NCBI GenBank assembly: GCA_947626075.1
Contig: CANQQW010000015.1
Coordinates: 1 to 32,398, forward strand
Reading direction: 5' to 3'
Source of the DNA: an uncultured Clostridia bacterium
GTDB taxonomy: Bacteria; Bacillota; Clostridia; UBA1381
Length of the DNA stretch: 32,398 bases
Each line of letters opens with the position of its first letter. Within the stretch, counting starts at the first letter, position 1. Positions 18,867 to 23,153 of the stretch are shown here, piece after piece. The notes under the pieces were generated by a model. It was not told the DNA's origin, searched no databases, and saw only the letters and a list, made by a program, of their open reading frames with translations. A program made the translations under genes and the position numbers.

Positions 18867-18895
18867 TTGACATATTCGCGAAAATGGTATAAAAT
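18867..18895 (+). promoter_or_regulatory. sigma-A-type promoter of rny
   Basis: TTGACA (18867-18872), 17 bp, TAAAAT (18890-18895). Alternative -10 TGGTATAAA overlaps. Confidence 0.65.
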
Positions 18896-18950
18896 ATATA
18901 ATGCTTAATGTTCTTTAAAAACAAGTTTTCTGTAAATATGAAATTTTATA

Positions 18951-19133
18951 TGTAATCCCAATACTTAAAATGGAGCCGTCTTAAAACGGGCTGCTCCGTA
19001 TGATTACAAGCCGCATTCGGCGCTTTACCTGCAAACGCGCCGGCGCGGGAAACGGCTAGGAGCCGGTGTTTCATAGGAAGCAGTCATTTTAAGAAAGTCC
19101 CCCATTGCAGGTGTTGGAGAAACTTTATGGGGG
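18951..19133 (+). ncRNA. Structured 5' leader RNA of rny (riboswitch-like candidate), start codon in a hairpin
   Basis: TGTAATC/GATTACA closing stem with ATAC/GTAT, GGAG/CTCC and CCGT/ACGG inside. CCGGC/GCCGG hairpin. CTTAAAATG(18964-18972)/CATTTTAAG(19085-19093), ACCTGCAA(19027-19034)/TTGCAGGT(19105-19112), CCCCCAT(19099-19105)/ATGGGGG(19127-19133, includes the start codon). Confidence 0.65.
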
Positions 19134-20707
19134 TGTTACTGATTAGTAGTCCAATAGTTTTGATTGCGGTTATTGCCGCCGCAATCGTGTTATGCGCTGC
19201 GGGCACCATAATCGGTTTTAATATGGGTGTCGCCCACAGAAAAAAGGTTGCCGAAGCGGAGTTCGGCAGCGCTGAGGAAAAGGCAAAGTCTATAATTTCC
19301 GACGCGGAAAAAAGCGCGAGCGCTAAAAAGCGTGAAATGCTCCTCGAAGCAAAAGAGGAAAATCACAAGCTGCGCGCGGCTTTCGACGCGGAGGTTAAGG
19401 AACGCAGAAACGAACTTAATCGTCAGGAGCGCAGACTTAACCAAAAGGAAGAGAATTTAGACAAAAAGACAGACAATTTAGAGAAAAAAGAGCAGTCATA
19501 CAATAAAAAGCTGAAGGCTCTTGAATCTAAAGAACAGGAAATCGCAGAAATTAAAGCTGAGCAGATGGCGCTCATCGAAAGGATTTCGGGTCTGACGGCG
19601 GAGGAAGCCAAGGCTATATTGCTTAAGGACATCGAAAGCCAGACAAGACATGAGGCCGCCATCATGGTTAAAGAAATTGAGCAAGAGGCAAAGGAGAACG
19701 CGGAGAGAAACGCAAAGAATATCGTTGCGCTTTCCATACAAAAGGTTGCCGCGGATCACGTTGCCGAAACAACCGTTTCCGTTGTAAATCTGCCGAGCGA
19801 CGAGATGAAAGGACGCATCATCGGACGCGAGGGACGGAACATTCGCACTCTTGAAACGCTTACCGGCGTCGACCTTATAATCGATGACACGCCGGAGGCG
19901 GTCATAGTTTCGAGTTTTGACCCGATACGCCGCGAGATTGCCCGCACGGCGCTCGAAAAGCTTATCGTCGACGGACGTATTCATCCGGCGCGCATAGAGG
20001 AAACGGTTGAGAAATCTCGCAAAGAGGTTGAAGCGATTATCAAGCAGGAGGGTGAAAGCGCCACGTTCGAGACAGGCGTACACGGCTTGCACCCCGAGCT
20101 TATCAAGCTGCTTGGTAAACTTAAATTCAGAACAAGCTATGGTCAGAACGTCTTAAAGCACAGTGTTGAGGTTTCGCACCTTGCGGGCGTTATGGCCGGT
20201 GAACTGGGAGCCGACGTCGCGCTCGCGAAACGCGCGGGTTTACTGCACGACATCGGTAAAGCGGTTGACCATGAAGTCGAGGGCTCGCACGTTACCATCG
20301 GAGCTGATATAGCGAAGAAGTACCGTGAGAACAAGGATGTCGTACATGCCATTATGGCGCATCACGGCGACGTGGAAGCGCAGACGCTTGTCGCCTCGCT
20401 TGTACAGGCAGCCGACGCGATATCCGCGGCGCGTCCGGGAGCCAGACGCGAAAATCTTGAAACCTACATCAAGCGTTTACAGAAGCTCGAAGAAATTTCC
20501 AACAGCTTCGACGGAGTTGAAAAGTCCTACGCTATTCAGGCGGGCAGAGAAATCAGAATTATGATTAAGCCCGAGGTCATTTCCGACGACGGAATGATTC
20601 TTGTAGCAAAGGATATAGTTAAGCGCATAGAAAGCGAGCTTGAATATCCGGGTCAGATCAAGGTTAGTCTTATCCGTGAAACAAGGGCGGTCGATTACGC
20701 TAAATAA
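19127..20707 (+). CDS. rny: Ribonuclease Y
   Basis: N-terminal TM, coiled-coil, KH domain ([36 protein letters not shown]), HD domain ([18 protein letters not shown]). GGAG RBS 7 nt upstream. Confidence 0.97.
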
Positions 20708-20721
20708 ACCTTCTGCAAACG

Positions 20722-20838
20722 AAAAAATCTGGGGCTGTTACAGGGCGTAAACGGGCTCGGCTGAGGTACTTTGCGATAAAGGCACTGTACATACCGTCCG
20801 CCGTTTAGCTTCTACCCGTTCTGTAATGCTCCTTTTTT
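20722..20838 (+). ncRNA. Structured intercistronic RNA between rny and ymdB ending in a terminator-like T-run
   Basis: GGGGC(20731-20735)/GCTCC(20828-20832), TTACAG(20738-20743)/CTGTAA(20821-20826), TAAACGG(20748-20754)/CCGTTTA(20801-20807), GGTA(20765-20768)/TACC(20792-20795); followed by TTTTTT. Confidence 0.6.
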
Positions 20839-20876
20839 ATTTGTTAATACCGTTAGAGAAAGGATTGGGCGGTCTT

Positions 20877-21659
20877 ATGAAAATCTTATGTATCGGCGAT
20901 GTTGTAAGCCGCGTCGGACGCGAAATGCTTTTTCGCTGCGTCGATGAGCTTAAATATCAAAAGCAAATCGACCTTGTTATAGCCAACGGTGAAAACTCCA
21001 CTCACGGCAGGGGTATGGCAAGGGCGGCATACAACGAGCTTATGCGCGCGGGCGTGGATATTGTGACAATGGGTAACCACACATGGAACTGCCGCGAAAT
21101 AGTGGATATAATGCGTAAGGAACGAAATGTAATCCGCCCCGCGAATTACAACGGTTCCTGCCCGGGCGAGGGTTCTCTCGTGCATACGTTAAAAAGCGGC
21201 GAAAAGGTCGGAGTTATAAACCTTATCGGCAGAACGTACCTCGAGCCTGCCGACTCTCCGTTTGAAAGCGCGGAGGAAGAAATAGAGAAGCTGAAAAAAA
21301 CCACCGATATTATATTGGTGGATTTTCACGCCGAAGCCACAAGCGAGAAGCTTGCGATGGGATATTTCCTCGACGGACGCGTTTCCGCCGTATTCGGCAC
21401 TCACACACACGTTCAAACCTCCGACGATACCGTGATGCCTCTCGGAACCGGCTACATTACAGACCTCGGCATGACCGGTCCGCAGATTTCAATTCTCGGC
21501 AGAGAGAAAACGTCTATCATAAACAGATTTCTCTGCAATATGCCGCAAAAGTTTGAAATAGCGGACGGCAAAGGTCAGTTCTGCGGCTGTATTTTTGATA
21601 TTGACTCCGCAAGCGGTCTTTGCGTCGGCACGGAACGCGTATTTATACGTGAAAAATAA
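20877..21659 (+). CDS. ymdB: YmdB family (TIGR00282) metallophosphoesterase
   Basis: MKILCIGDVVSRVGREMLF, VIANGENSTHGRGM, TMGNHTWNCREI, DFHAEATSEKLAMGYFLDGRVSAVFGTHTHVQTSDDTVMP. Start at 20877; the ORF-track start at 20826 lies in the preceding hairpin. Confidence 0.95.
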   Translation: MKILCIGDVVSRVGREMLFRCVDELKYQKQIDLVIANGENSTHGRGMARAAYNELMRAGVDIVTMGNHTWNCREIVDIMRKERNVIRPANYNGSCPGEGSLVHTLKSGEKVGVINLIGRTYLEPADSPFESAEEEIEKLKKTTDIILVDFHAEATSEKLAMGYFLDGRVSAVFGTHTHVQTSDDTVMPLGTGYITDLGMTGPQISILGREKTSIINRFLCNMPQKFEIADGKGQFCGCIFDIDSASGLCVGTERVFIREK

Positions 21660-21663
21660 GCAT

Positions 21664-21706
21664 AAAAAAAACAGGCTGACCAATATATAGTCAGCCTGTT
21701 TTTTTT
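21664..21706. terminator. Bidirectional rho-independent terminator
   Basis: AAAAAAAACAGGCTGAC-caatatata-GTCAGCCTGTTTTTTTT, perfect 17-bp stem between convergent genes. Confidence 0.95.
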
Positions 21707-23153
21707 ATTCCGTTATGTAAATTCGCGTGCCGAGCGGTATCGTATCGGCGATCCAGTTGATGTCGTCCGGGTGAAGTCTTACGCAGCCGTGGGATATATT
21801 TACGCCCACGCGCCCGTCATACTCGCCGCCTCCGTAGTAGAGAAGCGTGGAATGGAGCGCGTATCCGTTATGGAAACGCAGCACAGGTCCGACATAGTAG
21901 CCGGAATAATTCCAGCGTGTCCGCTCGATGTACTCGAACTGACCCGTTATCGTCGGCGTGCTCGGCGCGCCGAGCGCGCAGGGGAACTCCTTAAGCTGTC
22001 TCCATAAGTATTGCTGTCCCTCATATACCCTTACCTTGTATTCATGCTTTGATACCCAAACAAGATAATTCGTCTTACTTCCTATACCGTCGCGGTTTAC
22101 GGGTATTTTGTTCATTTCCTCCCGCACATACGGCGACTCGCCTATCAGAATATCCATATACTCACCGTAGTCGGCAACTTCAAGGCTGCATTCAAACGCC
22201 TCCGCAAGCGCTCTGACCGGCACGAAAAGCGAGCCGTCTATGTAAACCGTTTCATGGTCGGCGTTCACTCCAACGCCGAAAATTGTCATATATATGTTGT
22301 TCGCGTAGAACACTACCGATTTATCACCGACGCGGCAATCCACGCTGTCTTGTTCCTGATTGTAATTGACCTCAAGCCCCATCGCCTCGCCTATCGCCCT
22401 GACCGGCATCATCGTTATGTCGTCCACAATGCGCGCGTGCGGCGAAACATCGCTTAACCATCGGTTCGTAACATACATTCGCAGTTCCTTGTCGTAATGC
22501 GGATTACCCTCTATCAGCGCGCCGTTATGCTGAACGTAGCTGCCGCTGTCATCAAGGTAACCGTATGTATCGACAAGCAGCTCTTCGCCCGGTCCTACGC
22601 GCGTGTCAAGGTAGCGTATGGAGCGCAGTCCCTCTACCAGCTTTATCTTGAACTTCGCGCCCATTCTGTATTCGGGTACTTCAAAAACCATGCTTACCTT
22701 AGGCGTGTCCCAGCCAACATATCTGAGCTGTGAGCCTAAAAATTCTCCGTCCTCGCTGTAAAGCTCTATAACAGCGTTCTTTGATATTATGTACTTATGA
22801 GGCGTTACCTCTATATCAAGCCTGAATTCCTTTGATAATTCCTGCGGCGGAACATTCTGCGCTGGCGGCGTGCTTGTCGGTGACGCGCTCGGCTCGGGCG
22901 ACGTCACAGGCGAGGCTTGCGGCGTCGGCAAAGCGGACTCGGAGGGCGAAGGCGTTTGGGCGGTATTGTTATTCGCGCCGTCCTTTGCGGCAGCGTCCGG
23001 CGTCTGCGTCGGCGAAGCGTCCGCGCTCACCGCTGTCGCCGTCGGGGACGGTGTTTCAAGCGGTGAATCGCCGCCCGGAGCGGCAAGCGCCGCAGTATTT
23101 ATGAGCATCAGTACCGCCGCAAGGACGGCTGTTATTTTCTTTATCATGGTCAT
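21705..23153 (-). CDS. Secreted L,D-transpeptidase (YkuD) with copper-amine-oxidase-N-like domain and Pro/Ser/Thr-rich linker
   Basis: Signal peptide, PSPT-rich linker, VDDITMMPVRAIGEAMGLEVNYNQEQDSVDCRVGDKSV...SLFVPVRALAEAF, C-terminal LHSTLLYYGGGEYDGRVGVNISHGCVRLHPDDINWIADTIPLGTRIYI (YkuD catalytic motif). Confidence 0.93.
   Translation of the reverse strand: MTMIKKITAVLAAVLMLINTAALAAPGGDSPLETPSPTATAVSADASPTQTPDAAAKDGANNNTAQTPSPSESALPTPQASPVTSPEPSASPTSTPPAQNVPPQELSKEFRLDIEVTPHKYIISKNAVIELYSEDGEFLGSQLRYVGWDTPKVSMVFEVPEYRMGAKFKIKLVEGLRSIRYLDTRVGPGEELLVDTYGYLDDSGSYVQHNGALIEGNPHYDKELRMYVTNRWLSDVSPHARIVDDITMMPVRAIGEAMGLEVNYNQEQDSVDCRVGDKSVVFYANNIYMTIFGVGVNADHETVYIDGSLFVPVRALAEAFECSLEVADYGEYMDILIGESPYVREEMNKIPVNRDGIGSKTNYLVWVSKHEYKVRVYEGQQYLWRQLKEFPCALGAPSTPTITGQFEYIERTRWNYSGYYVGPVLRFHNGYALHSTLLYYGGGEYDGRVGVNISHGCVRLHPDDINWIADTIPLGTRIYITE

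Follow-up and report, generated by a model that had tools for sequence, protein, structure and literature searches.

Does a structured RNA lying between the gene for RNase Y (rny) and a ymdB-type metallophosphoesterase gene belong to the first or to the second of them, and what could it do there? The question is raised by a locus of an uncultured Clostridia bacterium, contained in a stretch of 32,398 nt that was analyzed as a whole and is called the window hereafter. In the window, rny (19142..20707; TIGR03319, E=4.5e-233), with an apparent AUU start at 19142, is followed by ymdB (20877..21659; TIGR00282, E=4.2e-87) after a gap of 169 nt; both genes, and all features located below unless stated otherwise, are on the + strand. 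A preliminary description of this DNA had placed in the gap a rod-like RNA that exceeds an ordinary terminator by far in size, and had listed as its possible identities an attenuator of ymdB, a 3′-UTR-derived sRNA, and an independent ncRNA.

Anatomy of the RNA Behind rny

The structured RNA, U-run included, spans 20731..20838 and is matched at 20730-20839 by covariance models R1 and R2: a rod of ~102 nt (20731-20832) and six U residues (20833-20838), located 23 nt 3′ of the rny stop codon. It starts at 20731 and not at 20722 as had been proposed. According to the fold and the pair counts, the bottom helix P1 is formed by the 5′ arm GGGGC (20731..20735) and GCUCC (20828-20832), which constitute the terminator stem, and is continued as upper P1 by UUACAGGGCG (20738..20747) paired with CGUUCUGUAA (20817-20826); in the latter, UUACAG/CUGUAA (20738-20743/20821-20826) is extended by GGCG/CGUU to 20747/20817. 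P2 consists of AAACGG (20749..20754) and CCGUUU (20801-20806). Alignment and comparison of 42 copies place an apical heptaloop, C-GAUAAAG-G with its closing pair, at 20774..20782, and a 3′-side bulge, CUUCUACC, at 20809..20816; these two patches were absent from the preliminary description, and the GGTA/TACC helix that it had drawn is not conserved, the relatives keeping the GAUAAAG-capped hairpin instead. The architecture is thus P1 (the terminator stem, ~16 pairs when extended), the bulge, a variable P2, and P3, a hairpin whose C-G pair closes the loop. An A-rich linker (20708..20730) connects the rny stop codon with the RNA and may be an entry site for an endonuclease; in most copies, the RNA is likewise preceded by an A/U-rich linker.

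The fold is more stable than expected by chance. For the stretch of 117 nt, the folding energy is -40.8 kcal/mol, vs -30.3 ± 3.3 kcal/mol for shuffled sequences (z = -3.2; 0/200), so that the structured RNA claimed between the two genes, with its GGGGC/GCUCC, UUACAG/CUGUAA, and AAACGG/CCGUUU helices and U6, is real. Five divergent copies folded singly gave z from -4.3 to -8.0 with identical architecture. The RNA measures 94-105 nt in 40 of the 42 copies, and in the other two the automatic fold set the 5′ end further upstream. In all copies (42/42), the RNA follows a CDS directly, and its end is formed by a terminator-like stem with a run of U5-U8, corresponding to 20828..20838 in the window (3′ arm and U6), which agrees with the terminator-like end previously proposed at the T6 run. 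Judged from these features, the bottom helix P1 is the predicted intrinsic terminator of rny.

Covariation and Two Near-Invariant Patches

Covariation among relatives was examined in two alignments. In A1, a sequence-only alignment of 20 sequences (22 distinct versions were collected), RNAalifold predicted 28 pairs, 22 of them with double changes; a separate count gave 23 such pairs and 91.2% of the cells paired, vs 81.8 ± 0.8% in shuffles and 36-49% after register slides. In A2, where 40 copies were fitted to the A1-derived structure by model R1 and the alignment is hence biased toward that structure, compensatory changes on both sides occur in 27 of the 28 pairs and 92.6% of the cells are paired (0/500 shuffles); slides of 1-3 columns collapse the pairing signal. 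Because A2 favors the structure of the model, the A1 figures are given alongside. The covariation is strong, and with 20 as with 40 sequences it supports the view that a conserved RNA extends well beyond the size of an ordinary terminator.

While the helix sequences change freely, loop and bulge are kept, as is the spacing between them. Among the 42 copies, the only variant of GAUAAAG is CGCUAAAGG (L055 and L057), and CUUCUACC is altered by single changes in L054 and L066 only, UUUCUACC and CUUCUACU occurring once each. Loop and bulge stand 23-29 nt apart, with 25 or 26 nt in 27/42 copies. From this combination of changing helices and constant patches, we infer a binding site rather than a plain terminator.

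The two patches have some complementarity to each other: UAAAG can pair with CUU(C)UA if one C is bulged out. An intramolecular pseudoknot between loop and bulge was considered on this ground, and the geometry of copy L067 speaks against it, since its predicted near-continuous helix of 20 pairs would make contact within one molecule unlikely. Loop and bulge residues hardly vary and so offer no covariation for or against the pseudoknot. The patches could also join intermolecularly.

Distribution in the Family

A DNA search of 61 related genomes and extraction of rny flanks provided the starting set, and covariance models R1 and then R2, both with rough E-values, were used for the searches. Homologues were found by both models in 42 of the 70 family genomes, one copy per genome. 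R2 matched none of 25 genomes from elsewhere in the order and, among 399 genomes sampled from the phylum, only the window's own genome; in 291 genomes of the class, R1 found family members and one lookalike lacking the bulge motif, and nothing else. The genomes compared are nearly all MAGs whose taxonomy below Clostridia is uncertain; one that carries no MAG tag in its listing is Lachnospiraceae bacterium MD329 (L099). When 84,980 species genomes were scanned for the pattern, 29 matches were obtained, 28 of which are model-supported Clostridia copies, in records that are mostly MAGs and in several cases labeled goat rumen or gut. The 29th, in Methylorubrum (L109), has no R2 match, and the one match of a pattern scan of viral contigs is unsupported by R1. 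The lookalike, L064:1501-1601 (G365), has a GAUAAAG-loop rod with a terminator-like end and scores 36-38 bits with R1/R2, but does not contain CUUCUACC and is not counted as a member; its neighborhood is phage-type, with an antirepressor-like gene downstream of the rod.

Within the family, 66 genomes have rny, and its 3′ end is visible in 63: the RNA is present in 42 and absent in 21. In a tree of rny, the genomes with the RNA group as one clade (SH-aLRT 99), the trait needs a single change, and the RNA is kept in all 42 genomes of the clade with a visible rny 3′ end. The sister-genus genomes without the RNA, as far as inspected, mostly show plain terminator hairpins behind rny.

Association With rny and Not With ymdB

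The RNA is located directly behind rny in 42/42 copies, and the model searches found none away from rny among these 42. Downstream, ymdB is usually the next gene, in the window (38 nt from the U-run to the ymdB start) as in most positive genomes. The RNA is retained where the next gene is convergent, as in G002 (polysaccharide-deacetylase-like) and G063, and where another gene replaces ymdB, as in G024, G083, and G084 (ruvX-like in the latter two); the gene names in G002, G024, G083, and G084 were read from the translated sequence and not family-searched. In G024, G083, and G084, a TTGAC/TTGAT-17-TATAAT-like promoter site occurs soon after the U-run, and in G025 a promoter-like site precedes ymdB itself. 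Because the next gene varies and ordinary hairpins mostly hold the same place in the negative genomes, the RNA by its genomic context goes with rny as its terminator, not with ymdB, whose regulation would be no more than a side effect in a part of the genomes. Behind ymdB, the window contains a 20-pair A/T-rich terminator-like hairpin (21662-21708), which the scan lists on the - strand.

A promoter of the RNA's own was sought in the 42 loci: the best candidates match 5-8 of 12 consensus positions, with no consistent site. Since no promoter is found in front of it, the RNA is most likely the end of the rny mRNA.

The 5′ Leader and Start Codon of rny

The other end of the rny transcript is also conserved. 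A promoter-like site, TTGACA-17-TAAAAT (18867..18895), precedes a long leader (18902..19141), which by comparison is specific to the clade and is shared by the genera that have the 3′ RNA; the rny leader of sister genera is shorter and different. Genera g7 and g16, whose rny 3′ ends fall outside the contigs, have the long leader too. The conserved stretches of the leader (18902-19141) are, in order, UGCUUAAUAUUCUUUAAA..UUUUCUGUAAA..AUGUAAUCCCAAUACUUAAAAUGGAGC..ACCUGCA..GCAGUCAUUUUAAGA..UUGCAGGU. Rfam gave no meaningful match to it at either the gathering or the relaxed thresholds, and in a rough alignment double changes occur in just 4 of 20 predicted pairs. The co-occurrence of leader and 3′ RNA rests on one tree branch; the tree shows a single change and thus no independent co-loss of the two. 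Genera g3 and g8 (L128, L129, L154, L157, L159, L161, L167) have an rny leader of their own, with conserved stretches such as UGCUUGUUAUUUCUUUAAACUAU..UUGGGAAUGUUGAAUUUU..AUUCAGCAUCCCC; pairing between GGGAAUGUUGAAU and AUUCAGCAUCCC is possible within it.

Throughout the family, rny apparently begins with a non-AUG codon, AUU or AUA, 6-7 nt after a strong Shine-Dalgarno sequence: ATT at 19142 in the window, ATA in G010, G029, and others, and, in the identical position, ATG in G014 and G092. The infC gene of Escherichia coli starts with AUU. In Staphylococcus aureus, infC starts with AUA (PMC13009471). At ~19093-19132 of the window, a hairpin CCCCCAU...AUGGGGG would cover the rny Shine-Dalgarno sequence, and many family members have similar C-rich/G-rich pairs 5′ of rny.

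Pairing between the two ends of the mRNA was also considered. The duplex energies of cognate 5′ and 3′ UTRs equal those obtained with the leaders of other genera, and, in this lack of a cognate excess of complementarity, a base-paired 5′-3′ loop is unsupported. Between CUUCUACC and the rny Shine-Dalgarno sequence, inspection by eye revealed only UACC × GGUG, an unconvincing four pairs.

Relation to Known RNAs

Rfam 15 contains no match to the element in the window at the gathering cut-off, none in the element region when relaxed to E<=10, and none to eight loci with divergent homologues. An RNA behind rny is not described in the open-licence papers searched, and neither rny nor ymdB is mentioned in the main text of either of two large papers on motif discovery.

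Several known systems resemble it in part. RNase Y of Bacillus subtilis autoregulates by cutting the rny mRNA within its 5′ UTR and the first ~100 nt of the ORF (PMC10303841); control of rny is post-transcriptional there, as it would be here, and involves a structured ribosome-binding-site region, but it lies in the 5′ UTR and early ORF, and no conserved 3′ RNA module has been described (PMC10303841). In S. aureus icaR, the 3′ UTR carries a UCCCC anti-RBS, and in B. subtilis hbs, 3′-5′ pairing protects the mRNA from RNase Y (PMC7821165). In both, a 3′ UTR acts on its own mRNA through base pairing with the 5′ side, whereas here the fold covaries, is closed by a terminator, and has conserved loops, with no sign of such pairing. 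The 3′-end-derived sRNAs CpxQ, OppZ, and RsaC (PMC9438474) likewise lie at an mRNA 3′ end and share the terminator with the mRNA; with regard to release, dependence on an RNA chaperone, and targets, the rny RNA differs in being known from sequence alone. Riboswitches and attenuators with a terminator platform also have a conserved core closed by the terminator stem, and ymdB is usually next; the rny RNA differs in that it follows rny, its downstream gene is not conserved, and no switch partner helix was found. With 6S RNA it shares a rod with an internal bulge, but it is about 105 nt long, forms part of an mRNA 3′ end, and matches neither 6S, which had been named earlier as a family to check, nor any other family in Rfam. 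Taken together, the sequences define a new RNA family whose general kind, the regulatory 3′ UTR/terminator, is known; unusual are its clade-wide conservation, its near-invariant loops, and its host gene.

Possible Roles of the RNA

The conservation of the shape and of the two patches suggests that the RNA helps to control how much RNase Y is made. At about even odds in our judgment, it is the rny 3′ UTR with its intrinsic terminator, elaborated into a module that would act on the rny mRNA through a factor reading the patches. Made most likely as the end of the rny mRNA, the module would be read at bulge and loop by a protein or a second RNA, and this reading would set the efficiency of termination of the rny mRNA, the stability of its 3′ end, or how readily RNase Y reaches the mRNA that encodes it. 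The outcome would be feedback on the level of a main mRNA-decay enzyme, RNase Y possibly acting on itself; RNase Y or a partner protein would be the first candidate for the reader. Self-control of RNase Y in B. subtilis makes feedback a reasonable default by analogy, though the 3′ end is uninvolved there. Circumstantial support for such a factor comes from the exclusive linkage to rny, the retention of the RNA, and other signs of post-transcriptional control of rny, namely the long conserved 5′ leader and the AUU/AUA start. The role could also stop at efficient termination or protection of the 3′ end. More tentatively, one branch of the family may have a bipartite system, in which the 5′ leader with its AUU/AUA start is combined with a 3′ RNA read by RNase Y or a decay partner.

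The main rival, possible and somewhat doubtful, is an sRNA released from the 3′ UTR: RNase Y or another nuclease would cut the A/U-rich linker and free a stable RNA of ~105 nt, which would act in trans on other mRNAs or a protein via CUUCUACC and/or GAUAAAG. The stable rod with its terminator, the A/U-rich linker, and the two conserved patches left single-stranded all suit this explanation, 3′-end sRNAs are a known class (PMC9438474), and the linker would fit the A/U-rich specificity of RNase Y (PMC10303841); however, none of the 42 copies has moved away from rny, few processed 3′-UTR sRNAs are known in Gram-positives (PMC9438474), and the poor promoter matches (5-8 of 12) speak against the kind driven by an internal promoter. 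The same poor matches in 42 loci, the lack of an Rfam match, and the constant position beside rny make an independent ncRNA with its own promoter, 6S-like or of another known family, highly improbable in spite of the rod shape and the asymmetric bulge.

An attenuator, i.e., a ligand- or protein-responsive, riboswitch-like terminator setting the read-through from rny to ymdB, would be in keeping with the closeness of ymdB in the window and most positives, which leaves no obvious room for a promoter, and with the terminator stem closing the conserved core, so that termination could depend on folding of the core. Because the RNA persists in front of convergent genes (G002, G063) or genes of another kind with promoter-like sites of their own (G024, G083, G084; ymdB in G025), attenuation of ymdB is unlikely as a conserved role, and inspection of minimum-energy and centroid folds identified no alternative anti-terminator fold. 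Quite unlikely, too, is a long terminator or 3′-end stabilizer with no regulatory partner: the RNA does sit where sister genera have plain rny terminator hairpins, but this explanation fails to account for two near-invariant unpaired patches of 7-8 nt held at near-fixed spacing among changing helices.

Implications for RNase Y Control

Conserved covarying RNAs at the 3′ ends of bacterial mRNAs are, as far as is known, far less cataloged than 5′ leaders. The present RNA adds a family absent from Rfam 15. It accompanies the gene of a major mRNA-decay enzyme and has two patches that can be tested as recognition sites. The setting of the RNase Y level outside Bacillus is thereby made open to experiment, and the bipartite system, if true, would provide a 3′-UTR sensor for feedback on a main mRNA-decay endonuclease.
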